Of a stretch of 37,338 nt of DNA, positions 11,286 to 34,436 are shown one piece after another (positions within the stretch are counted from its first letter, which is position 1; every line of letters begins with the position of its first letter). The position numbers were made by a program, and so were the translations under genes. The notes below the pieces were generated by a model that saw nothing but the letters and a program-made list of their open reading frames with translations, did no database searches and was not told where the DNA came from. Source of the DNA: Halanaerobium congolense (lineage in GTDB: Bacteria > Bacillota > Halanaerobiia > Halanaerobiales > Halanaerobiaceae); contig NZ_SOEF01000028.1 of the NCBI RefSeq assembly GCF_004366375.1, forward strand, positions 1-37,338, read 5' to 3'.

Positions 11286-13043
11286 TTACCCCCTGGCTTT
11301 TAACCATCTATTTTGGTATGGAGTTAGCTTTAGCTTTAAACTATCATTTTCAATTTTATAATCCTCTTCTGTAATTATATCTCTTAACAGACTTCCATTT
11401 TCAGCTTTAAATAAATCTGCTTTAAGCTCTAATTCAACCGTTTCAGCCGAAACATTGCTTAGAGCTGTAATCCTCTGCTCAGCCTCACCCCGCTGAACTG
11501 CAAATACCTTCTGGTTAAGATCCAGTATTTTCTGAGGACTATCTGGAGCAAAAGCCTTATTTTCCTGCCTCAGCTTTAACAATTCTCTATAGCTGTCAAA
11601 AACCTGTTTTCTAAATGAACCCTGCTCGTTTAACTCACTTAAAAGCCTGTCCCGGTCCAGTTTTTCTCTGTTAATTCTTCTGTTTTCCCCACTTTCTTCT
11701 ACACCCTGCTGATAATTTTCGGATCCCAACAACGAATGAAGATAGATTCCCGGTACACCCTGCAGGGCCAGCATAATTGCCTGAGAGGCCATAAACTGTT
11801 TAACCTGTAATTCAATTTTTTTATCCTGATCTCTAACTGCATCCACATAGCTGACATTTATTTCGTAAGGACTTTTCGAACCATCAGAATTGGTTTTATA
11901 GGAGACCAACCCTCCTTTTGCTTTAACTTTTTTAACCACATCTTCAATCTGATTTTCATTTAAAATTCCTTCTACAGGCCTCAACCCAACACCATCATGA
12001 GAGGCTAAGAAATTGAAATAATAATTACCTGCTTCCAGCTCCTCTAAAGAAGCAGCCCACTCAGTCAGTTTGGAGGCATCTTCCTCTAAAAAGCTGTATA
12101 ATACAAGCGGCGGCAGGGTAAAGTTATAGACCATATCTGCCTCATCTACACCCCTGCCAAAATAGCTGATATTTTCCTCATGTGGCACATTGGTTTCAGT
12201 TAAGATTAAGGTCGTAGGAGCTGCCAGCTTGAAAATTTCTTTAAAAAGCTGGATCACCTTATGAGTTTCCGGCAGATGAATACAGCTGGTGCCCATTTCC
12301 TTCCAGAGATAGGCAATCGCATCCAGGCGAATTATCTCTGCTCCCTGAGCTGCATAAAATAGAAGCACATCAATTATTTCTAAAAGAACTTCAGTTTCTT
12401 TAAAATTTAAATCAATCTGATCTGGACTAAAAGTTGTCCAGACATGTTTTTTGCCGGCTGCAGTCTCAACTTCAGTCAGCAGCGGTTTGGCACGAGGTCT
12501 GGTGACCTCAGAATAATCCTTTTCTGGATCCGCCTCAATAAAATAATTGGCATATTTACCTTCCTGTTCTTTAAACTTTTTAAACCATTCACTTTCTGCA
12601 GAGATATGGTTGATTACTGCATCAAACATTAAAGAAAAGTTTTGTTTGAGGGCTTCTATATCTGACCAGTCACCAAGCTCAGGATTAACCTTTTTATAAT
12701 CAATCACTGCAAAACCATCATCCGAAGAATACGGAAAAAAAGGGAGAAGATGAATGGTGCTGATGCTTTCTTTTAAATAATTTTTAAAAAATTCATTTAA
12801 AGTCTGCAGTGGTGCTTCTCCCTCACTTTGGATATGATCTCCATAGCAGATCACCACACTGTCTTTTTCTGTCAGCCGGGCGGCATCCTGTTCCTGCTCC
12901 CTCAAGTCAGGATGTTTTTCAGCAAAATCAATTATAAATTCCTCAAGTCGAGGATAAAATTCTGCTGTTGTTTTTTTATCATATATAAAATTTAATTTCT
13001 TTTTCAGTTTTTCTCTGCTTGATTTTGGAATTTCAAAACTCAT
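11286..13043 (-). CDS. GH13_18 sugar phosphorylase (sucrose/glucosylglycerate phosphorylase type)
   Basis: A 585-residue retaining alpha-glucoside phosphorylase. The GH13 barrel has the nucleophile Asp241 (IIRLDAIAYLW), the acid/base Glu283 (LTETNVPHEENISYFG) and the transition-state stabiliser Asp350 (FLASHDGVGL). The subfamily 18 layout and the length above that of classical sucrose phosphorylase (about 490-500) fit the glucosylglycerate/sucrose-6-phosphate phosphorylase branch that includes E. coli YcjM. It would convert an imported alpha-glucoside plus phosphate into glucose 1-phosphate and the free acceptor. The acceptor is undecided between glycerate, glycerol and fructose (or its phosphate). 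The adjoining glycerate kinase, permease and dehydrogenase favour glycerate. It is followed immediately by the MDR gene. Confidence 0.85.
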   Translation of the reverse strand: MSFEIPKSSREKLKKKLNFIYDKKTTAEFYPRLEEFIIDFAEKHPDLREQEQDAARLTEKDSVVICYGDHIQSEGEAPLQTLNEFFKNYLKESISTIHLLPFFPYSSDDGFAVIDYKKVNPELGDWSDIEALKQNFSLMFDAVINHISAESEWFKKFKEQEGKYANYFIEADPEKDYSEVTRPRAKPLLTEVETAAGKKHVWTTFSPDQIDLNFKETEVLLEIIDVLLFYAAQGAEIIRLDAIAYLWKEMGTSCIHLPETHKVIQLFKEIFKLAAPTTLILTETNVPHEENISYFGRGVDEADMVYNFTLPPLVLYSFLEEDASKLTEWAASLEELEAGNYYFNFLASHDGVGLRPVEGILNENQIEDVVKKVKAKGGLVSYKTNSDGSKSPYEINVSYVDAVRDQDKKIELQVKQFMASQAIMLALQGVPGIYLHSLLGSENYQQGVEESGENRRINREKLDRDRLLSELNEQGSFRKQVFDSYRELLKLRQENKAFAPDSPQKILDLNQKVFAVQRGEAEQRITALSNVSAETVELELKADLFKAENGSLLRDIITEEDYKIENDSLKLKLTPYQNRWLKARG

Positions 13044-13101
13044 AAAATCACTCCAGTTATTTTTTTATTCTTATCTGCTTATAAGCTTACAAATTCTTAT
13101 G

Positions 13102-14424
13102 CTAAATTAATTTTTCCAATAACTCTTCTAAACGGCTGTAGGATAATTCTGCAGCTGCGATTTCAAAATTTTCTTCTACAGTCTGCTGGCGGTAATCCTG
13201 ATCTTTTAAATATTTTAAAGCCTCTTTTAAAGCAGGCTCAAATTTCTTTTCTGCTATCTTAATATAGCCGTCTTCTCTTTTCTGATACTCTGAGCCCAGG
13301 GAAGCCAGGTTTAGGTTGTATTGCTTAATATCACTCTTAAAAACCGGATATTCGAAAACAACCACCGGTTTTTTTGCAAAAAGTGCTTCTAAAAGCTGAT
13401 TTCCCCAGCCTTCTTTAATACTGGTATAGGTAATTAAATCAGAAATTACATAGCTGTCCCAGAGAGAATAAATTTTCTTTCCTCCTCTGGCTGAACGCTG
13501 ATGGGCAAATAAATTATTGGCCCAGATAATTTCTACCTCACTTTCTGCAGCCTGCTGCTTTAAAAACTGAATATAATTCTCATTTTCTTCTGTCAATCCA
13601 GGCAGCAGAAAAACAACCCTGTTTTCACTGCTGAACTCTCTTCCATCATATAGTTTCCCCTGCAGCTTCTGCTGCTGCAGCCTGGCAGTAAACTCTATAG
13701 CCAGCTCTACTGCCTTTCGCTCTGCAATTCGGGTTGCATGCAGTACAACTATATCATCTTCTTTGATACCCAGTTTAGATCTCAAATCCTCATTATACGG
13801 ATCAGATTTCCATAAAGGCTGCTTAAAATCAAAAACATTGGGCACTACAGTCGCTTCTAGTCCTTTTCTTTTTTTAAGCTCCTTTTGAGCAAGTTTATTG
13901 ATTACTACGTGCTCTATTTCTTTTAGCCGGGGCGGAAAATATTCTCCCAGAATATCATTTACAAAATCACAGACCGGACTGCTGTATAAATCTCTTTCCC
14001 AGTAAAAGTCATGGTGGTGGGCAATAGTTTTCAGCTTTAATTTTTCTATAACCTGCTTAAAAGCTATCGCTGCCGGTAGATTCCAGCCCAGGGAAAATAT
14101 ATTATTGGGAATTAAAAGTTCAATTCCCGCATTTTTGATTTCTTTTTCCAGCTTCTGAGCAATTTGAGCTGCCTCAGCCTCAATCTCAGCCTGAAACTCT
14201 GCTTCGGAACTGTAATCTTTCAGACATCGATAAGCATTATCAACAAATTTAAGATTTTTTTCATTTTTATAAAATAATTCTTCAATCTGAATTTCAGCCT
14301 CCGGAGTTCCCGAGATATAGACTACCTGATGCCCCATTTTTTCTAGAACCAGGCGCCATTTGTCCATTTCTAAGGAAACTCCATCAGTCTGACCGGTCCG
14401 AAAATGTGCCAGAGCAATTTTCAT
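13102..14424 (-). CDS. GT4-family glycosyltransferase (possible mannosylglucosylglycerate synthase type)
   Basis: A 440-residue GT-B glycosyltransferase. The N-terminal half starts MKIALAHFRTGQTDGVSLEM, an acceptor-domain start with the glycine-rich TDG loop. The C-terminal half has HATRIAERKAVELA, which would contact the nucleotide diphosphate, and the retaining EX7E motif in KEGWGNQLLEAL (about 338-346). I use the ATG at 14424, which has GGAGGT six bases upstream; the TTG at 14430 is less likely. A biosynthetic transferase inside an uptake-and-phosphorolysis operon is odd. It resembles enzymes that add mannose to glucosylglycerate, which would fit a glycerate-solute locus, but I cannot confirm donor or acceptor. 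A sucrose- or trehalose-type transferase is another possibility. Confidence 0.72.
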   Translation of the reverse strand: MKIALAHFRTGQTDGVSLEMDKWRLVLEKMGHQVVYISGTPEAEIQIEELFYKNEKNLKFVDNAYRCLKDYSSEAEFQAEIEAEAAQIAQKLEKEIKNAGIELLIPNNIFSLGWNLPAAIAFKQVIEKLKLKTIAHHHDFYWERDLYSSPVCDFVNDILGEYFPPRLKEIEHVVINKLAQKELKKRKGLEATVVPNVFDFKQPLWKSDPYNEDLRSKLGIKEDDIVVLHATRIAERKAVELAIEFTARLQQQKLQGKLYDGREFSSENRVVFLLPGLTEENENYIQFLKQQAAESEVEIIWANNLFAHQRSARGGKKIYSLWDSYVISDLITYTSIKEGWGNQLLEALFAKKPVVVFEYPVFKSDIKQYNLNLASLGSEYQKREDGYIKIAEKKFEPALKEALKYLKDQDYRQQTVEENFEIAAAELSYSRLEELLEKLI

Positions 14425-19019: not shown

Positions 19020-19031
19020 GCGTTTGACTAA
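19012..19031. promoter_or_regulatory. LacI-family operator covering the regulator's own -35 box and the jetD stop
   Basis: TTAGTCAAGCGTTTGACTAA is an almost perfect inverted repeat (one mismatched pair) around CG. It contains the -35 hexamer of the regulator's promoter and the TAG stop codon of jetD. A bound repressor would block this promoter and could also obstruct transcription arriving from the Wadjet operon, since no terminator is visible after jetD. Confidence 0.8.
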
Positions 19032-20152
19032 AATTGATCAGAATTTTTTTTATAAACTTCCAGTGTCACAAGCTCCTGCGGCAGCCTGAGATCATTTTCC
19101 CAGGCCCGCTGCAGCTCTGCAGCCAGATCATTATATCCTCCAGCTTCAAATTCTATCAATACCTCCGCCAGAACATTTTGATTTTTATTCTGCCGCTTCC
19201 GACAGGGATAAAATCTCTCACTCTCCTCCAAAAGCAGCTGATAATATTCTGCCAGCAGTTTAATTTTAAAATCAGGATATTTATTTTCCAAACCCACATA
19301 AATTGCCAGCCCTTCTGGATCCAGGTCACCTGCATAATAGATATTTAGACCATTAAGCAGCTGCTGCCGCTGACTGTAATTATCGTCTGCTGCCTTAAGC
19401 CCCAACAGCTCCTCTAGAAAAGAAAAACTTCTGATTATCTTTTTGCCCTGACCATAAATTACAGTATCAAAATCCCGAGCAAAAATATCAATCCCTGCTG
19501 CCAGGGCTTTTTTGGCACCGATAAAAGCTGAATGGTTTTCCATAATCAAAATATTATTGATCTGAGTTGGATCTTTTGTCCAGTAAACAAAAAGATGATT
19601 GTACTGCTGAGCCTTTAAGTCAGCCAGGCTCAATTTTAAATTGCTGAGGAGCTTCTTTCCTGCAGTCCGGCTTAAATATTTTTCATCTGCAAACAGCTCC
19701 AGGGAGCGCTCCTCCCGGCTGGTCCATTCCCGCTCGGATTTATTATTTAAAAACTCAGCCAGTCGAGAAAGCTGCTGCTTTAACTCCCCTGTCTGCTGAG
19801 CCGGCCTCTTAAGATAATAGCTTAAGTTAAGCTGACGGGAGAGCTTTAAAATAACTTTATCTGACCAACCTGCCGGCTCTTCTTTAACCAGACTCCAGCG
19901 CTTTTTAAGCCGGGGCTGCCGCTGATTGAAATCAGAACTTTTGATTGCTCTAATTTTTTCTTCAGCTTCCATCTTTTTTAAAAGCTGATATAAATTCTGA
20001 TAACCACCGGCTGCCTGATAGGCAGAAGCTCCTCCCAGTCTAGCTTTAATAAAATTTTCTAAATCAGCAAGCTGAAAGCGCAGCCTGTCCTCAAGCTCAT
20101 TTCTTTTATATTTTTTAAATAATCTAATCCACTTTTGCTCGTCTTTCACCAT
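19028..20152 (-). CDS. jetD: Wadjet nuclease subunit JetD (TOPRIM, DUF2220)
   Basis: A 374-residue protein, the fourth gene of a Wadjet operon. Wadjet subunit D (MksG) cuts closed circular DNA that the SMC motor has extruded. The C-terminal half is a TOPRIM domain: the glutamate motif ILIMENHSAF (Glu near residue 203) and the aspartate motif YYAGDLDPEGLAIY (about 270-283), with the DxDxxG set intact, so the metal-dependent nuclease should be active. The N-terminal half is the helical arm-like domain that binds DNA and the motor. It overlaps the end of jetC by 29 bases. Its stop codon is inside a LacI-type operator. Confidence 0.88.
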   Translation of the reverse strand: MVKDEQKWIRLFKKYKRNELEDRLRFQLADLENFIKARLGGASAYQAAGGYQNLYQLLKKMEAEEKIRAIKSSDFNQRQPRLKKRWSLVKEEPAGWSDKVILKLSRQLNLSYYLKRPAQQTGELKQQLSRLAEFLNNKSEREWTSREERSLELFADEKYLSRTAGKKLLSNLKLSLADLKAQQYNHLFVYWTKDPTQINNILIMENHSAFIGAKKALAAGIDIFARDFDTVIYGQGKKIIRSFSFLEELLGLKAADDNYSQRQQLLNGLNIYYAGDLDPEGLAIYVGLENKYPDFKIKLLAEYYQLLLEESERFYPCRKRQNKNQNVLAEVLIEFEAGGYNDLAAELQRAWENDLRLPQELVTLEVYKKNSDQF

Positions 20153-23100
20153 AAATCACCTGACCCTGTACAACTCCCTGGTTGCGCTCGGTATCACCTA
20201 TCTCTAAGGCCCAAAAAACCGGGAAGCGCTCACTAATTTCAGTTTTGATAATCTCTGGAGCAGCAAAGGCCACCAGCTGGAAATTAAGCTTATCGGCAAT
20301 TTTGAAAATTGGATCCAGCACATGGGCTGCCGAAGCCTTGCCAAAAGGATTATCAAGGAAAAGAACTGTCCAGGGATTTGATTTGTCAAAACGCTGTTTT
20401 TTGTAATTTAAAAGCATCATCATCATAAAAGCATTGATCGAAAGTGACTGACCACCACTTCCCTCAGGTCCATTTCCCTTGCCCTGAATCACCGATTCCC
20501 AGTCAGAATAAAAATAATCCTGGGGACGGGCATGGAGAAATTCATTTTTTTCAGTCATTTTATAAACCTGGAGCACCGGATAGCGGCCGCGCAGCGCTCT
20601 TGAGAAAAGAGCTGCATCACCACAGTATTCCTTCAGTTTATAGTCCGGCAGCTGCTCAACATCGATTTCCTCCCGGTTAAACTTATTGATCAATTCTAAG
20701 AAATATTCCTTCAGCTCTGCAATTACCTCCTGTTCATCATCAGGCAGCAGATCATCCCGACGCAGTCTGACTAAGGGAAAAGCAAAACCCCGCTGATTGT
20801 GGTAGACCATATTGCTGATCATTTCCTTCATAGAGGTAATCAGCCGCATCACATGGATTGACGAGCGCTCGGCCCACTGCTGTCTGGCCTCTTCTGCCTC
20901 CGTTTTGTTGCGGTCAATCGTATTCAGTTCATTATTTATATATTCCTTAAAGGAATTCAGCATCTCATAGTTATACTGGTAGTCACTGGCTCTAAAATTA
21001 TGGAGCAGCTTTTCGTTGATACTGTTTTTTAAGGTAATATTTTCTACCACATCTTTGACATCATTTTTAAAATGATAAAAATTATCTTCAGTCTTTTCTC
21101 GAAGAGATTTAAGCTTATTTTCAATACTGCGATAATCATTTTCCCAGCTTTCAATTACTGCTGCTGGTGAATCTTTAAGTTCCTCTTTAATTCCAGCATT
21201 AAGCTCACCCTTTGCTGCCTCCAGCTGGTAATATTGAAGCTTATTGGCCAGATTATTATGGGCCTGCAGTTTTTCCTGATAATTTAAAATCATTTTTTCC
21301 AGTTTGGAAAGATAATCTTTATTCTCACTCAGCTCTTTTTTAATCTCCAATTCCTTAACTTTAAGTTCTACATTATCCCAGCTCTGAACCGAACGCTGAA
21401 AACGCTCTTTAATCTCAGCCGCCTTTTCCTCAAGCTCATTTTCCCTTGTCTCCAGCTGACCGCGGCGGACTAAAATTTCTTCCTTCAAACTCTGAGCTTC
21501 TTTTTCAGTCTTTTTAAGCTGCTCGTTTATTTCCTCCAGAGCGGTTTTGAGCTGGCTCCGATTTTTAAAATCATAATCCCGCTCCTCCCAGTCAGCTGCC
21601 AGCTGAGTTAATTCAGTTTTTAATTCATTAATTTCACTTAAAAGTTTCTGCAGGCTCTCTTCTAAATATTTGAGCTCGGCTGCTCTTTCTTCTTCTTTTT
21701 TTTGAAGAGAAATTATCTTCTCATAGTTTTGATAACTATTGTGCTGCCGAAAAGCAAAAAGTTCAGGATACTGCTCTCTGGGCGAAATATTAAGCTCATC
21801 TTTTTTGAATTCACTTTTAAGCTCAGCCTGCTGATCACTAAGCATTTCATTTAGACTGCTGGTGAATTTCCGATAAGCCTCAAGCCAGTTCTCATAATTA
21901 TTTTCCAGCCTCAGCTCTTCTTTCTGTTTCTTTTTCTGCTCAGTTTTATTTTCAGCAAGCAGTCCGTCCAGATGCTCTATCTCAGCCAGTGCCTGCTGAT
22001 AGCTGCTTTCTTTTTTATCTAAATCTCTTTTTGCCTCCAGATATTCTCTAACCTGCTTGCGATTTTCCTTAAGTTCAGTCAGCTTTTTTTCTTTTATCTG
22101 ATATTCCTGCTTCAAGGCGCTGATCTTTGCCGCTGTATTTTTGAGCCTCTGCTCATATTTTTTGATCTCAGCCTGCAGGGATTCCAGCTTAGATTCTTCT
22201 TTTTCCAGTTTAGTTTTTATCTCAGCTGCTGATTCTGCTGCCAGCATGGTCTCTGCCCGGTAGTTGAGCTGATTTAGATTTTTCAGCTTCCGCTCAAGAA
22301 TAGATATTGTCTCTCTGATCTCAGCCTCTTTACTTTGCAGACCGCTGAACCACTGTTCAAAATCATTTTTATTCTCGATAAAATTCTTTTCCTTACCTGT
22401 CAGCAGTTTAAAGGGCAGTTCAGAATCACTACCATCCAGCTGGTGGTTGATAAAAATCGGCACAGCAAAGTGAGAAATTTCAGCTAAGGAAATATTGGCC
22501 TTAATCTTCTCCCAGTCTGACTTATAAACTACCACCAGTCCATAAGGCAGCAGCGGATAATCCTTTAAATATTTTTGACGATCCTCTACCAGCTCAAATA
22601 AAAATTCACTGCCATAATAGACGCGAATATCAAGCTCTTTAATCTTCTGGTAGAGTCTTTTCTGCTCCAGACTGGCCACCCAGTATTCTCTGTCATTTAG
22701 ATTTAAATCAAGCTGGAGCTCAAATTGATCTGCATTCAGCTCCTGCAGACTTTCCTCTTTTTCGTTAATCAGTTTTAAAAGTTCATTTTGCTGCTGCTGC
22801 AGCCACTGCTTGCTGTAAAATTCTTCAAACCTGTCCAGATTTAAGCTTTTTATAAGCTGAGAAAACAGCTCCTCCTCAGCCTCTTTCTGTTTTTTAAGCT
22901 CTTCCTTCAGATTTTCAACCACTGTCTCCTGAGCCGCTGCCTCAACTGCAGTCTGCTGTCTTTGACCCTGCAGTTTTTCTTTCTGCCCTTCCTGTTCTTT
23001 TAAGTTTTCTTCCAGTTTTTCCAGTTTAGAATCTAACTCAGCTGTCTCATTATCGAGATTCTGCAGCAGATATTTTGGTGTTTCCAGCTCCAGCGGATTA

Positions 23101-24608
23101 AAAAAGTGAGCCAGCTTCTCCTTTTCGGCTTCAACTTTCTGCTCCTGATGTTCGTATTCTAACTTAAACTGCTGCTCATCTCTAATTTTTTGTTCTATCT
23201 TATTTTCTTCAGCCTCCAGCTCTTTCAGCTTCTGCTCTAAATATTTCTGATAGGAATAATAATCGGCAGCTGACTCTTTAACTTTAGAATTTAGCTCATC
23301 TATTTCTGCAGCTGTCTCCTCCTTTAGCTGCCTGATTTCTGCTTCCAGCTCCTTAAATTCTGATCTCTCTTTCAGGGAATTTATCTTATCTCTTTTGCCC
23401 TCAGCCTCACTTTCGAGATCTTCTAATTTGAGATATTTCTGGTTCAGCTTTAACTGTAATTCTTCTTCCCTCAGCTTTTCAAGCTGCTTATTTAATTTCT
23501 GCTGCTCAGCCTCTGCCTCTTCCTGTTCTGCCTTAAGCTCATTTAAAGCCCTCAGCTTTTTAACATATTTTAAGTTCTCTGATTCAAAATTAAGCTCTCT
23601 GATCCTGCTTTCAGTTTTTTTCTTTTCCCGCTGACTGCGGCGGAGCTCATTTTCCAAAAAAGTTCTGCGGTCTGCAATTCCGCGGAGATAATTATTACCC
23701 CGCTCTCTGATCATCTCTCTGGTTTCTTTAAGCCTCAATCCCTGTTCGGCATTACTCAAGAGAGGATCAACCATCTGAGAGAGAGTTTTTAAATCCTCAC
23801 GCCGGGATAAGAGTTCAGGCAGGTTGCGGGCAATCTTTACATTATCCACAAAAATATTGAGCAGCGAATTTTTCTCCCGTTCATTGTAATAGCTGATGCT
23901 TTCACTGACAGCAGGAATAATCAGCCGATCAAAAAGGGCTTTATTATCCTTAGCCTGAGAAAAATATTTCTCCAGGCCACCCTCACTGCGGTTGATATTT
24001 TTCATGATCTCCCACTCAGAACGGTAAATACCATGGCTGCTTAAATACTGATAGTATTCTGAGTTGAGGCTGGAAACTGCTGTTTTTGAATATTTGATAA
24101 AATCAGCCCGATTCTGATCAATAAATTCTTCCAGCCGTTCATATCCCAGCACCTGATCACTGCTTTTAGTATAGAGAGGAAGATTAGTCAGGCTGAAGCG
24201 GCTGCTGCCCTGGTATTCATGGGTGTAGAGAAAATATTTTAGGCCCACTTTTCCTTCTTCATCAGTTGTGCTCTGCTGTTTGTGGGCGGAAACACAGATT
24301 CCAGTTAAAAGTTTTTTATCCTCACTGCCATCAAGCCGCCACTCCAGCACCACATGGAAGGTATAAGGCTGGAAGACCTGGTAGCGGTCATAAAACATTC
24401 CTTCCAGCTTATTGCCATTCCGCTTACCCCAGGCTGTTCCGGGGAGCAAAAGTTGGGAGATTAGCTGCAGCATAACTCCCTTACCACTCCCGTTCTGCAG
24501 GGTAAAAAGGCTGTGGTCAGATTCTAGATCAAAAATTGAGTTGCGGTGCTGTTTTTGAAAACCATCATATTTGTTACCTGTAATCCTAATTTTGCTCAGT
24601 CTGGGCAT
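20124..24608 (-). CDS. jetC: Wadjet SMC-like ATPase JetC (MksB-type)
   Basis: A 1494-residue SMC-family ATPase, the loop-extruding motor of Wadjet. The N-terminal head carries the P-loop LQNGSGKGVML (39-44 = NGSGKG). Long charged coiled coils run from about 310 to 630 and from 760 to 1130, rich in Glu, Lys and Leu. Between them lies a hinge-like segment (about 635-755). The C-terminal head has the ABC signature GSGGQSLS (near 1384) and a Walker B region TVLFLDNPFGKAS (near 1414). Two positions are non-standard: Gly instead of Ser/Thr after the P-loop Lys, and Asn after the Walker B Asp. The length fits type II JetC better than type I (about 1100). It overlaps jetB by 23 bases and has a GAGGAGG site. 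Confidence 0.9.
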   Translation of the reverse strand: MPRLSKIRITGNKYDGFQKQHRNSIFDLESDHSLFTLQNGSGKGVMLQLISQLLLPGTAWGKRNGNKLEGMFYDRYQVFQPYTFHVVLEWRLDGSEDKKLLTGICVSAHKQQSTTDEEGKVGLKYFLYTHEYQGSSRFSLTNLPLYTKSSDQVLGYERLEEFIDQNRADFIKYSKTAVSSLNSEYYQYLSSHGIYRSEWEIMKNINRSEGGLEKYFSQAKDNKALFDRLIIPAVSESISYYNEREKNSLLNIFVDNVKIARNLPELLSRREDLKTLSQMVDPLLSNAEQGLRLKETREMIRERGNNYLRGIADRRTFLENELRRSQREKKKTESRIRELNFESENLKYVKKLRALNELKAEQEEAEAEQQKLNKQLEKLREEELQLKLNQKYLKLEDLESEAEGKRDKINSLKERSEFKELEAEIRQLKEETAAEIDELNSKVKESAADYYSYQKYLEQKLKELEAEENKIEQKIRDEQQFKLEYEHQEQKVEAEKEKLAHFFNPLELETPKYLLQNLDNETAELDSKLEKLEENLKEQEGQKEKLQGQRQQTAVEAAAQETVVENLKEELKKQKEAEEELFSQLIKSLNLDRFEEFYSKQWLQQQQNELLKLINEKEESLQELNADQFELQLDLNLNDREYWVASLEQKRLYQKIKELDIRVYYGSEFLFELVEDRQKYLKDYPLLPYGLVVVYKSDWEKIKANISLAEISHFAVPIFINHQLDGSDSELPFKLLTGKEKNFIENKNDFEQWFSGLQSKEAEIRETISILERKLKNLNQLNYRAETMLAAESAAEIKTKLEKEESKLESLQAEIKKYEQRLKNTAAKISALKQEYQIKEKKLTELKENRKQVREYLEAKRDLDKKESSYQQALAEIEHLDGLLAENKTEQKKKQKEELRLENNYENWLEAYRKFTSSLNEMLSDQQAELKSEFKKDELNISPREQYPELFAFRQHNSYQNYEKIISLQKKEEERAAELKYLEESLQKLLSEINELKTELTQLAADWEERDYDFKNRSQLKTALEEINEQLKKTEKEAQSLKEEILVRRGQLETRENELEEKAAEIKERFQRSVQSWDNVELKVKELEIKKELSENKDYLSKLEKMILNYQEKLQAHNNLANKLQYYQLEAAKGELNAGIKEELKDSPAAVIESWENDYRSIENKLKSLREKTEDNFYHFKNDVKDVVENITLKNSINEKLLHNFRASDYQYNYEMLNSFKEYINNELNTIDRNKTEAEEARQQWAERSSIHVMRLITSMKEMISNMVYHNQRGFAFPLVRLRRDDLLPDDEQEVIAELKEYFLELINKFNREEIDVEQLPDYKLKEYCGDAALFSRALRGRYPVLQVYKMTEKNEFLHARPQDYFYSDWESVIQGKGNGPEGSGGQSLSINAFMMMMLLNYKKQRFDKSNPWTVLFLDNPFGKASAAHVLDPIFKIADKLNFQLVAFAAPEIIKTEISERFPVFWALEIGDTERNQGVVQGQVIYGERRAKVD

Positions 24609-25365
24609 GCTGATTTTCCTCCTCTATCTCTTTTCTGCTTGCTAAAATTAAGTCCATAAATTTATTGTAGCGCTTCTGGCTGTGGTAGAGCTCATCTAAG
24701 CGTTCATAGAGCTCTGCCTTGGGAATCAGCTTCAGCTCATCACTCTGGTCAATAATCAAGCCCTGTTCACTTAAAGGTTTCAGCGCTGTATTGATAAAAG
24801 AAAGGCGGTTACCCTTAGTTCTCGTTACATCCACCTTCTCATTTTTATTTAACCTGTATTCACTGAACTCTGTCAGCCAGAGCTCAGCCACCTCTTCCAC
24901 GGCAATTGACCAATTTTGGGTAAAGCTTTCATCTTCTTTTTTGCGCTCCAGCCAGCTCTCTAAAGTTGCAGTTACCAGGTCAGAGAGGCGGTGATAGGAA
25001 ATCCCTTCTTCCTCCCAGCGAATCCGGACATGACTTTCTTTATCAATTTCAGCCAGAAAAACTGAAATAATGATATTGGCCAGATAAAAGTAGCGCTTCC
25101 GCTTTAAGCCGGAATATTTTTCTTTCATCTGAGTATAGGAATTGGCAAAACTTGAGCCTCTGGCCTTTGAGACAAGGTGCACATTTTTAGCTGTTGAAAA
25201 AACTCTTAGACCTGCCTCAGCTGCCATGGTGTTAACTATATTATGTATTTCACTGTTAGTTCTGTACTTTTCAGCCAGTGGATCGGAGACTGAAAGAATC
25301 TCATTTTCTAATAATTTAAAAAATAGGGCGGCTCCATTTTCGAGTTCTTCCTGTTTAAAGGCCAT
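24586..25365 (-). CDS. jetB: Wadjet subunit JetB (MksE/KITE-like)
   Basis: A 259-residue protein in the jetB position. In Wadjet this subunit is a KITE winged-helix dimer (MksE) that sits on the kleisin JetA and bridges the SMC heads. No enzymatic motif is visible, as expected; it is rich in helices and charged residues, with a central SHVRIRWEEEGISYHRLSDL segment. I use the ATG at 25365, which has GGAGG at nine bases and lies one base after the jetA stop codon in coordinates; the ATG at 25416 inside jetA lacks this signal. The assignment rests mainly on size and operon position. Confidence 0.8.
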   Translation of the reverse strand: MAFKQEELENGAALFFKLLENEILSVSDPLAEKYRTNSEIHNIVNTMAAEAGLRVFSTAKNVHLVSKARGSSFANSYTQMKEKYSGLKRKRYFYLANIIISVFLAEIDKESHVRIRWEEEGISYHRLSDLVTATLESWLERKKEDESFTQNWSIAVEEVAELWLTEFSEYRLNKNEKVDVTRTKGNRLSFINTALKPLSEQGLIIDQSDELKLIPKAELYERLDELYHSQKRYNKFMDLILASRKEIEEENQHAQTEQN

Positions 25366-25366
25366 T

Positions 25367-26857
25367 TTAATCTTCCTCCAGATAAATTTTATAGGGTGAG
25401 ATGATAAACTGATCAAGTAAATTTACTTTTTTACTGCTGCCTGTCAGCCTGGCAGAAATTTTTCTGCCTTCCAGTTCAGCTAATTCAGGCTCGACTTTTA
25501 CTAACTTATTGAATAAAAGCAGCCGTTCATCCAGGCCCGGATACTCTTCCACAATTTTAAGTTTGATATCGGTAATAATAAACATCATAAACAGCTCCAG
25601 ATTAAGCTGTTGACTGAGCCATTTTTCCTTCTGCTCTGGACTAAGCTTATTTAATGCTGACAGCTTAAATTCTCCTTTTTTAAAAAGCTCAGTAAAAACA
25701 TGCTGCCAGAGTTCAACCACCAGCCCCCAGTCTATTTCCCGCTCCGGTGCTGACTCAATTTCCAGAGTTGCTATTTCGCCTTCACTCTCTTCGAGATAAC
25801 TGTAAAGCTGCTGTTCTGACCAGGCCCAATCTAAAGGAAAAATAAAGTCCTGCTCCGGTGAAAAAAGTGGATTCAGCATTTTTTCTAAATCATCGATTTG
25901 GGGTAGTCCTGATTTAAGTACTGTATTCTGCCAGAAATCTTTTTTGAAACTCAAGCGCGAAGTCTGCCAGAAAATATCGGGATTTTCCCGCCGCAGCTGC
26001 AGCTCCAGTGATAAATTGGAAACTGTGAGCTCTGCCAGATAATCATGGAGGGACCTTGCCCGCTCCAGTTCTTCAAATAAGAGTTCTCCTTCTTTCTGAT
26101 CAGCATTTTCAAAAGTATCAAGTCTATCCCGCCAGACAAAGATATCACTGAAAACTTTCTTTTCTTCTTTAAACTGTTCTCTGACCTCGGCCTCTGTCCG
26201 CCGGCGCCGTTCTTTATAGGCAGAAAAAATCAACCCCGGGTTGCGCAGTATATCCTCCCGCCAGTCCTTTTCCTTTTTGATCAGATTACGGACCCGGGCA
26301 ATTAAGTTGCTGACACTGCCCTTTGCTTCTTTAAAATTACCATTTTTAATCAGCTGCAGAGTGTAGAACTGCTCTAAGTCAAAACCGAATTCCTGCAGAA
26401 TTTCCCTGGTAATAAAAATTATCTCCTGTGAAATCTCAGAGAGCCTGTAGACTGTGCTCCCACCTTCCTGCCAGTTTGAGGCCTCCCGGTCCGGAATTAA
26501 ATAGCGGTATTTAAAATCTTTAAAGTCACCGGCAGTCTCATCATAAATTTTGACATGAAAATATGACTGCTGTTTGGGATCCCCAGAGTAGAGAACTCCA
26601 TCTACCAGTCTTTCGACTTCTTCCATATTTATTTCTAAACGCATTTCTTTTAAAATTTCAACTGTCAGCTGGAGTAAATCACTGCGGCTCCGCTGCTCGT
26701 TATTATTTATCTCACGCTTAAAAACTTTTAGCAGAAGATAAAGAGAGATCTGGTGGGAATATTCGTTTAAGCTACCTGCATCCATCCCCTGTCCCAGTTC
26801 TGCTATTGCTTTTGTCTTTTTTAGGCGTTCATTTAAACCAGTATTTGCTCGATCCAT
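25367..26857 (-). CDS. jetA: Wadjet subunit JetA (MksF kleisin-like), type II-like
   Basis: A 496-residue protein, first gene of the operon. JetA is the kleisin that links the two SMC heads and binds JetB. The N-terminal part (about 20-160) is winged-helix-like, with SLYLLLKVFKREINNN. A conserved-looking block RNPGLIFSAYKERRRRTEAE (about 205-224) and a long helical region follow. I see no catalytic motif. The sequence looks more like the type II JetA family than the DUF3375 family of type I, but this is judged by eye. The start has GGAGAGGG four bases upstream. The upstream gap is separated from wrbA by two terminators, so the operon has its own, not clearly recognisable, promoter. Confidence 0.82.
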   Translation of the reverse strand: MDRANTGLNERLKKTKAIAELGQGMDAGSLNEYSHQISLYLLLKVFKREINNNEQRSRSDLLQLTVEILKEMRLEINMEEVERLVDGVLYSGDPKQQSYFHVKIYDETAGDFKDFKYRYLIPDREASNWQEGGSTVYRLSEISQEIIFITREILQEFGFDLEQFYTLQLIKNGNFKEAKGSVSNLIARVRNLIKKEKDWREDILRNPGLIFSAYKERRRRTEAEVREQFKEEKKVFSDIFVWRDRLDTFENADQKEGELLFEELERARSLHDYLAELTVSNLSLELQLRRENPDIFWQTSRLSFKKDFWQNTVLKSGLPQIDDLEKMLNPLFSPEQDFIFPLDWAWSEQQLYSYLEESEGEIATLEIESAPEREIDWGLVVELWQHVFTELFKKGEFKLSALNKLSPEQKEKWLSQQLNLELFMMFIITDIKLKIVEEYPGLDERLLLFNKLVKVEPELAELEGRKISARLTGSSKKVNLLDQFIISPYKIYLEED

Positions 26858-26965: not shown

Positions 26966-27003
26966 AAAAAAGCAAAACAGCCTCCAATTTTAGAAAGGCT
27001 GTT
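26966..27003 (-). terminator. Terminator immediately after the orphan ORF and before the Wadjet operon
   Basis: Minus-strand AACAGCCT pairs with AGGCTGTT, followed by TTGCTTTTTT. The stem begins inside the stop codon of the 46-residue ORF. It insulates the Wadjet operon from upstream transcription. Confidence 0.75.
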
Positions 27004-27152: not shown

Positions 27153-27183
27153 AAAAAACCCCAGCTGCTGAGGCCAGGGCTTT
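27153..27183 (-). terminator. wrbA terminator
   Basis: Minus-strand AAGCCCTGGC pairs with GCTGGGGTTT (with G-U pairs), followed by a run of six T. It lies 34 bases after the wrbA stop codon. Confidence 0.8.
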
Positions 27184-29289: not shown

Positions 29290-30542
29290 TTATTTTGACT
29301 CCACTATAGGCACTGTTAAACTTCCCTGAGGCAGGATATAGCTTTTATAGTTTCCGTAATATTTTTCTTCTAGATATTCAACTGCTTCCTGAAGACTATT
29401 CATCTTTTTAGCAAAAATATTTTCTGTCTCAGCTCGGCTCAGGCTGGAAATTAAAATTATTTCTTTTTCAGCTGCCACCTTAGAAACAGCAAAAGCTTTG
29501 TGACCACCTAGTACGAATTTTTCTTTAATCCGCTCAATATTTACTTCGGGTTTTGCTGCCTGATCCATCCATTTTCTAAAGCATTCTTCACCATAGCCTT
29601 CAGAACATTCTGCAGCCCAGATGATCGTTCCCCCCTTTTTAACAGCATGATCTGCGTGATCTAAAGCTTTTTGTGCCTGATAGATATTTATATCACGAGG
29701 AAAGCCACCTGAACTGACCAGAGCAGCATCAGCTTTTTCAGCCAGAGGTAGATGATACATCTCGGCTGAGGCTGCAATCCCAGCTTCCCAGGCCTGACGG
29801 TAATCACCTGCACAGACCTGGACTATTTTGCGGCTGCTGTTAGTGACAACATTGAGTATGAAATCAACTCCAACTTTAGCTGCCGCCTCAAACATCTCCC
29901 GGCTGATCGGATTATCTTCTAAGGCAGGATTTTCTGCTGTCACTTCAACCATCATCGCATGATTATTTTCGATACTTTTCCGACCTGCTACTCCGGGTAA
30001 AATTGACTTACGGCCACCAGAAAAGCCGGCCATGTAGTGGGTAAAATTACCCCAGTTGTAATTAAAAAATCTGCCTCAGCTGCTCTTTTATTCAGCAGCA
30101 GTTGATTCCCGGTGCTCAGCTGACCTAAGTCGCTTAAATCCTGATCACAGTTATGGTAAACAAACTCATATTCAGCAGCTGCCTCACCAAATATCTCCCT
30201 GTTTTGAGCTGCCGAATGAGGGCTGTGAACTCCGGTGGCAACAATAAATGTCACCTGTTCTTTTTTAATTCCCGCTTCAGCAATAGTTTTCAGTAGAGGT
30301 GGAAGCAGATAATTATAAGGAGTATAGCGGGTTACATCATTAACTACAATTACCAGCTCATTAATTTCCTTAGCTGCTAAAAGATCCGCCAGAGCTGCGG
30401 TAGCTATTGGACTTGTCAGAGCTGCTTCCACTGCTGCTTCTGGATCCTTTATTCCTGTTTTTTCATCTGCTGTTAATATATCAATTACTCTGCTGCTCTC
30501 AATTTCAAATTCCAACTCTTTTCTACCATACTTTAATTTCAT
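29290..30542 (-). pseudogene. larA: LarA-family nickel-dependent racemase, broken by a single-base deletion
   Basis: LarA enzymes racemise lactate or related 2-hydroxyacids using the nickel-pincer cofactor. The first frame covers about the N-terminal 180 residues, including DVTRYTPYN and ATGVHSPHSAAQNREIFG. It then reads TTGVILPTTWPAFLVAVSQF and stops. The expected ILPHYMAGFSGGRKSILPG appears across the -1/+1 frame switch if one base is added to the GGG run at 30039-30041 (CCC on the coding strand). The second frame then encodes the rest to 29290. The restored product would be 417 residues, normal for the family. The break falls in the HY motif with the conserved active-site His, so the sequence as given cannot make an active enzyme unless the ribosome shifts frame or the base is a sequencing error. 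Confidence 0.85.
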
Positions 30543-30571
30543 TTCTGCTATTATTCTCCTCAATTCTCATT

Positions 30572-32799: not shown

Positions 32800-34113
32800 T
32801 TAATGGAAAACAAAGTAGAATACAAAGACTACACCTAAAACATAGACTAACCAGTGAACATCTTTACCTTTACCTGTAAATAGTTTAACTAAAGGATAAA
32901 CAATAAATCCAAGAGCAATACCATTAGAAATTGAATAAGTTAAAGGCATCGCAATCATTGCAATAAAAGCAGGCAGAATTTCTGTAAAGTCATCCCAGTC
33001 CAGTGCTGTAATATTAGTCATCATCATTGTTCCAACTATAATTAAAGCTGGTGCTGTTGCTGCTCCGGGAACTATAGCAATTAAAGGTTTAAAGAATAAG
33101 GAAAGGAAAAATAAAATAGAAACAACTACACCTGTTAAACCTGTTCTTCCACCTTCAGCTACCCCAGATGCTGATTCAACATAAGTAGTAACTGTACTTG
33201 TTCCAAATAAAGCTCCCCCTGTGGTACCAATAGCATCTGCTAAAAGAGCGCGACTTGCCTTTGGCAGATCACCGTTTTCATCAATATAACCGGCCTGCTG
33301 ACTAACTCCAACCAGAGTTCCTGCTGTATCAAACATATCAACAAAGAGGAAAGAAAGAATAACTCCGATCATTCCTACATTTAAAGCTGCCCCAATATCC
33401 AGCTGAAATAATACACCTGACCAATCTGACATCTTAGGCATGGCAACTACTCCATTAAAAGCAGGGGTAACTCCATTAAACCAACCAAATACTGTAGAAG
33501 CTAAAATACCCCAAAGCAAAGCTCCCTTTACCTTTTTAGCATGTAAAATCCCTGTGAAAATTAAACCAAATAAGGCAACAAGAGCTGATCCTTCTAATAG
33601 ATTACCCATTCCAACTAAAGTAGCATCATTATTAACAACTATTTCTGCATTCTGCAGACCAATAAAAGCTATAAAAAGTCCAATACCGGTACTGATACCA
33701 GTTTTTAAGGCCATAGGAATACTGTTGACTATCATTTCTCTAACTGGTGTTACACTTAAAATAATAAAAATAACACCTTCTAAAAATATAATACCAAGTG
33801 CTGCCTGCCAGCTAACTCCCATTCCAATAACTACAGAATAAGCAAAAAATGCGTTAAGGCCCATCCCAGAAGCAAGTGCAAAAGGATAGTTACTCAATAA
33901 GGCCATTGCCATTGTACCTAAAACTGCACCCATGATAGTTGCAATGAAAACTCCATCAAAAGGCATACCTGCATCACTTAAAATAGTTGGATTGACAAAT
34001 ATAATATACGCCATTGTCATAAAGGTTGTAAATCCAGCAATCACCTCTGTTTTCACATCAGTATTATTTTCCTGCAGTTTAAATAAATTTTCTAAACTCC
34101 CATTATTGCTCAT
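32800..34113 (-). CDS. pbuG: Purine (guanine/hypoxanthine) permease, AzgA/PbuG family
   Basis: A 437-residue, 12-to-14-segment membrane permease of the nucleobase-cation symporter 2 (AzgA) family. Family features are EVIAGFTTFMTMAYIIFVNP near the N-terminus, the ALASGMGLNAFFAYSVV motif, LFVDMFDTAGTLVGVS and the GGALFGTSTVTTYVESASG loop. The substrate call comes from the C-type guanine riboswitch in its leader, which turns expression off when guanine or hypoxanthine is plentiful. The start has AGGAGGG upstream. Transported species in this family are hypoxanthine, guanine and adenine; the riboswitch favours the first two. Confidence 0.93.
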   Translation of the reverse strand: MSNNGSLENLFKLQENNTDVKTEVIAGFTTFMTMAYIIFVNPTILSDAGMPFDGVFIATIMGAVLGTMAMALLSNYPFALASGMGLNAFFAYSVVIGMGVSWQAALGIIFLEGVIFIILSVTPVREMIVNSIPMALKTGISTGIGLFIAFIGLQNAEIVVNNDATLVGMGNLLEGSALVALFGLIFTGILHAKKVKGALLWGILASTVFGWFNGVTPAFNGVVAMPKMSDWSGVLFQLDIGAALNVGMIGVILSFLFVDMFDTAGTLVGVSQQAGYIDENGDLPKASRALLADAIGTTGGALFGTSTVTTYVESASGVAEGGRTGLTGVVVSILFFLSLFFKPLIAIVPGAATAPALIIVGTMMMTNITALDWDDFTEILPAFIAMIAMPLTYSISNGIALGFIVYPLVKLFTGKGKDVHWLVYVLGVVFVFYFVFH

Positions 34114-34242: not shown

Positions 34243-34314
34243 ATCTGCCCATTAAGATAAAACATGAATTACATACATGTAATAAATTAGCCATATAAAT
34301 AGCTAATTCAATTC

Positions 34315-34381
34315 CCCCATAGTTGTCAGTTATCGGCTGACACTAGAGACTTGTGAACCATATCATCACAATTATATGAGG
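34315..34381 (-). promoter_or_regulatory. Purine riboswitch aptamer, guanine class
   Basis: P1 is CCTCATA/TATGGGG, P2 is TTGTGA/TCACAA with the loop TGATATGG, and P3 is TGTCAG/CTGACA with the loop CCGATAA. The junction has TCTCTA and ACT. The C in ACT (equivalent to C74 of the xpt aptamer) indicates guanine/hypoxanthine rather than adenine recognition. P1 3' strand and the following region lead into the terminator. This places the permease under an off-switch. Confidence 0.92.
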
Positions 34382-34436
34382 TCTATTTAGTTTTTATTAA
34401 TTTTTAAAATAATAATCTATTTTATTTCCACTTATT

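Follow-up and report, generated by a model that had tools for sequence, protein, structure and literature searches.

The window analysed here, a single contig of 37,338 nucleotides from a Halanaerobium chromosome (Halanaerobium congolense, whole genome 2.83 Mb), carries between 19028 and 26857 four genes that a preliminary description took for a complete Wadjet (JetABCD) operon, probably of type II. The locus raises the question of which type of Wadjet is encoded there, and of how far the SMC-like ATPase of the system, JetC, resembles its counterparts in mechanistically studied Wadjets.

Identity and type of the operon

Four adjoining open reading frames lie on the minus strand, every frame open, and form one operon:

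25367..26857, minus strand: jetA, kleisin-like subunit of type III, 496 aa (JetA3 PDLC00565, E 1.3e-192, residues 1-496 on model positions 1-497)
24586..25365, minus strand: jetB, KITE-like subunit of type III, 259 aa counted from the ATG at 25365 (JetB3 PDLC00573, E 2.4e-95; Pfam DUF6063)
20124..24608, minus strand: jetC, SMC-like ATPase of type III, 1494 aa (JetC3 PDLC00586, E 7.4e-185, residues 1-1470 on model positions 1-1459)
19028..20152, minus strand: jetD, winged-helix and TOPRIM nuclease of type III, 374 aa (JetD3 PDLC00591, E 5e-90; Pfam JetD_C)

The completeness of the operon and its JetABCD identity were borne out by these four frames over the span and by PADLOC matches to all four subunits, the identities of JetA (kleisin) and JetB (KITE) being taken from the family models alone. 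The order jetA-jetB-jetC-jetD holds as read along the minus strand. As for the overlaps claimed between all neighbouring genes, those of jetB with jetC (23 bp) and of jetC with jetD (29 bp) were found, whereas jetA and jetB most likely abut. The start of jetB is most likely the ATG at 25365, one base past the jetA stop, and the upstream TTG at 25416 is less likely, because a GGAGG is placed nine bases 5' of this ATG and the JetB3 model match begins there (at residue 20 of the version of JetB started at the TTG); a jetA/jetB overlap of 50 bp arises only with the TTG start.

All four genes evolve by purifying selection, with dN/dS values of 0.03-0.23 against close relatives, where computable, that of jetD (about 0.2) being the highest of the four, yet constrained. 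JetA is 76-92% identical in other Halanaerobium. An origin of the signal in chance or decay was excluded by the open frames, by these dN/dS values and by the PADLOC E-values (1e-192, 2e-95, 7e-185 and 5e-90), the last of which rule out a chance match.

The assignment to type II, on the other hand, did not survive the profile comparison with JetA, JetB, JetC and JetD models of types I to III, in which a type III model was the best PADLOC match of every subunit, near full length in each case (JetA3, JetB3, JetC3 and JetD3). JetA, JetB and JetC matched no type II model in PADLOC, JetC gave zero JetC1 or JetC2 matches, and neither the single JetC2 model tried (PDLC00550) nor the single JetC1 model tried (PDLC00517) found a match anywhere in the genome. 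Type II systems such as nvJET of Neobacillus vireti share with this operon the SMC-kleisin-KITE-TOPRIM four-gene plan and a long JetC, and the type II reading is favoured by the length (1494 aa) and SMC-like build of JetC, which resemble type II JetC (1355 model positions), and by a weak JetD2 match of JetD (E 5.6e-06, against 5e-90 for JetD3). These resemblances are opposed by the type III matches of all subunits and by the lack in JetC here of the GxNGxGKS and DEAF motifs of type II JetC, so that a type II Wadjet is considered barely conceivable.

Type I Wadjets and MksBEFG are approached by the window system in the fold of JetD, near those of MksG and Pseudomonas aeruginosa JetD, and in the C-lobe model of JetC, nearest to Escherichia coli JetC. 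Their JetC differs in being shorter (about 1110-1150 aa) and in its motifs, GxxGSGKS and DEAF. An identity as housekeeping SMC or type I was dropped, as no models of these matched. We hold with high confidence that the operon itself is one more type III Wadjet, ordinary and intact. That this chromosomal system senses and cleaves circular plasmids is likely, and resistance to plasmids would be expected from it.

ATPase motifs of JetC

Three motifs of the ATPase head were located in JetC:

24477..24500, minus strand: Walker A, residues 37-44, LQNGSGKG (N-lobe alignment and hhalign)
20448..20459, minus strand: ABC signature, residues 1384-1387, SGGQ (C-lobe alignment)
20340..20369, minus strand: Walker B, residues 1414-1423, TVLFLDNPFG (C-lobe alignment)

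In Walker A the lysine (K43) is kept, while Leu replaces the first Gly and a Gly (G44) replaces the Ser or Thr that follows GK. The hhalign comparison of N-lobe profiles placed the type III motif on GSNGSGKS of type II (probability 95) and on GDVGSGKS of type I (probability 96). The Gly is limited to the type III subclade of the window, which has NGSGKG and, in most members, the gene order A-B-C-D; elsewhere in type III this position is Ser or Thr, the more distant relatives examined showing NGGGK[ST] and the order D-A-B-C.

In Walker B the aspartate (D1419) is kept and an asparagine (N1420) stands in place of the catalytic glutamate, the sequence D-N-P-F-G being the same in all 15 type III C-lobes aligned. 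A search of 398 Bacillota genomes with the type III JetC C-lobe alignment gave matches in 49. The catalytic position was occupied by Asn in all of the 30 type III loci counted, from 30 genomes with that of the window included (29 DNPFG and 1 DNLFG), and four of the type III JetC sequences rescanned with PADLOC were JetC3. As controls, 12/12 type II JetC sequences kept SLDEAFAG or ALDEAFAG together with GxNGxGKS, and seven type I JetC sequences, four of them verified as JetC1, had (I/F)DEAF and GxxGSGKS. In profile comparison the type III DNPFG aligned to the DEAF of type I with a probability of 93 and to that of type II in a weak match (probability 3.7). As every sampled type III locus shares it, the change from Glu to Asn does not exclude membership of the Wadjet family.

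The C-lobe model of JetC (pLDDT 76) has a strand with D1419 as its very last residue, and a helix that begins beside SGGQ, a predicted placement as expected for Walker B and the signature helix. Its top structural matches, over the whole length, were the heads of E. coli JetC and of MukB; with Z of only 5-6, this match is supportive rather than strong. The full-length JetC profile matched only coiled coils. No mention of the type III Walker B Asn was found in the literature searched, which was without several key Wadjet papers.

An observation apart concerns a related genome (locus L039, genome G025), in which a group II intron with a reverse-transcriptase reading frame (11510-13353; Rfam RF02005 and RF00029) lies within a type III jetC, inserted exactly at the ABC signature codons (ASGGQS/LSINAFM).

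The JetD nuclease and the genomic setting

The acidic residues of the nuclease are placed as follows:

19538..19540, minus strand: TOPRIM Glu E205, invariant in 13 JetD3
19319..19327, minus strand: TOPRIM DxD, D276 and D278, invariant in 13 JetD3
19073..19075, minus strand: C-terminal Glu E360, invariant in 13 JetD3

The key TOPRIM residues are hence all present, as had been claimed, and the TOPRIM nuclease identity of the jetD product was supported by its modelled fold together with Pfam JetD_C and these residues. The model, built from an alignment with 12 relatives (pLDDT 88), places a winged helix ahead of a TOPRIM domain, and its closest solved fold is MksG of Corynebacterium glutamicum (8b7f, Z 10.6, rmsd 3.4 over 145 aligned residues). 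Comparison with P. aeruginosa JetD (7til) gave a Z of 9.5 and an rmsd of 14.8, a value which suggests that the modelled domain arrangement differs; topoisomerase VI-A scored Z 8.5-9.4. Single-sequence PDB searches with JetD and JetC returned no matches, the JetD profile and the head-only JetC profiles had no Wadjet among their matches, and a JetD search across named genomes matched in Halanaerobium only.

Two further features of JetD were observed. A tyrosine conserved at position 112, after the winged helix, was only considered for a role like that of the catalytic tyrosine of topoisomerase VI. In the JetD proteins of three other loci (L026, L030 and L037) a single loop lying between the TOPRIM Glu and the DxD is lengthened by in-frame insertions of about 10-30 residues, at a site corresponding approximately to residue 256 of the window JetD.

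The operon was present in 9 of the 14 genomes of the same family, that of the window included, and missing from 4 of the 12 Halanaerobium genomes. Its position, flanked by wrbA and a sugar repressor and described beforehand as not standard, turned out to recur: several other Halanaerobium have the operon with wrbA upstream (at about 0.2 to 12 kb) and/or a sugar-type cluster downstream, consisting of LacI with the same ABC sugar genes or of glycerate kinase with hydroxyacid dehydrogenase. These recurring surroundings make it the usual place of the operon in the genus. In two of the four Halanaerobium without the operon, LacI and sugar-acid genes come after wrbA within one stretch. Rather than a defence island, the site is a variable region common to the genus, where the operon has been gained or lost.

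Such a place among metabolic genes, shared by the genus and outside any defence island, together with the strong purifying selection, could speak for JetABC acting mainly in chromosome housekeeping like MksBEF, with plasmid cutting as a secondary function. The lack of the operon in 4 of the 12 Halanaerobium genomes is unlike an essential chromosome organiser, however, and jetD is retained with an invariant active site, which leaves the housekeeping reading very improbable beside that of a Wadjet directed at plasmids. Among plasmids, type III JetC heads turned up in just two records, megaplasmids of 0.9 and 1.08 Mb, and phages had none; this occurrence on megaplasmids only agrees with reports that large plasmids escape, two records being too few for a test.

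Several other features of the window and of its relatives were recorded. The Rfam scan showed no RNA element near the operon. A terminator-like hairpin with a T run, belonging to no known RNA family, lies at 26976-27003, on the jetA strand and some 120 bases 5' of the gene, and attenuation ahead of jetA is possible; a further terminator-like hairpin is present at 27157-27175, just after wrbA. A purine riboswitch (RF00167, 71 bits) occupies 34300-34399, upstream of a xanthine/uracil permease gene (32800-34113). An apparent frameshift, either a sequencing error or the sign of a pseudogene, divides a LarA-family (nickel-dependent racemase) gene at 29290-30563 into two overlapping reading frames (29988-30563 and 29290-30033). 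In a genome of the same family that is without type III Wadjet and has a type II JetC (G012), a short frame (L044, G012:C5:35967-36062) matches the N-terminus of JetA over 34 residues (56%) and is perhaps a jetA remnant.

Proposed mechanism and the question of ATP hydrolysis

In the accepted model of Wadjet action, worked out on type I, DNA is measured by ATP-driven loop extrusion. By analogy with the Wadjets studied so far, JetA (kleisin), JetB (KITE) and JetC (SMC) of the window would form a dimer-of-dimers which, powered by ATP, would act on DNA and detect that it is a small closed circle; this recognition would switch on JetD, which would then cut the circle, and neither the chromosome nor a large or linear replicon would be cut. 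The hydrolysis step cannot simply be transferred to type III, since the ATPase motifs of its JetC depart from those of the mechanistically known Wadjets. With Asn in place of the catalytic Glu, hydrolysis may be slow, absent or achieved via another residue. Binding of ATP and ATP-driven engagement of the heads are probably retained, judging from the conservation of the Walker A lysine, the Walker B aspartate and the signature.

The mechanism of type I Wadjet is available in a review (PMC10586767), according to which DNA cleavage by type I requires ATP and a working JetC ATPase and the type II and III complexes were then still to be characterised. Wadjet-III is named in the literature searched only for a hinge without channel (PMC12647877). 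A Glu-to-Gln change at the same position in MksB (E1042Q) impairs its ATPase (PMC10123090). In the Lamassu protein LmuB, likewise an SMC-like defence ATPase, the Walker B Glu is naturally replaced by Gln, and little or no hydrolysis is suspected (PMC10586767); Lamassu differs in its operon and effector, whereas the window system has Asn and the partners JetA, JetB and JetD.

One explanation would be that type III JetC never hydrolyses ATP, binding alone joining the heads into a clamp around DNA, by which its shape is sensed without loop extrusion. It would agree with the Asn at the catalytic position of every type III locus counted and with the additional loss of the Walker A Ser/Thr in the subclade of the window, with nucleotide-binding Lys, Walker B Asp and signature Ser being nevertheless retained, and it has a precedent in LmuB. 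It is at odds with the need of type I cleavage for a working ATPase and offers no obvious means of measuring DNA size; moreover, another base may act instead, for example E89, E198 or E209, which are acidic, invariant in the N-lobe, and no more than a guess as substitutes. A strictly binding-only clamp is consequently thought rather unlikely. The broader reading is put forward tentatively, as possible and still short of probable: type III Wadjet would be a defence system whose SMC ATPase has, in all members of the type, lost the canonical machinery for hydrolysis and, in the Halanaerobium subclade, the Walker A Ser/Thr too, and that senses small circles either by ATP binding alone or by means of an unrecognised catalytic residue.

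Taken together, the predicted practical effect of the operon is a barrier to plasmid transformation in Halanaerobium, and the type-wide Asn in place of the catalytic Glu of SMC proteins matters more than the operon itself. It would make type III Wadjet, beside LmuB, a second SMC-like defence family with an altered catalytic site, here with Asn. If type III restricts plasmids without the usual ATP hydrolysis, then either the sensing of shape dispenses with fast hydrolysis or hydrolysis proceeds by a route not yet recognised.
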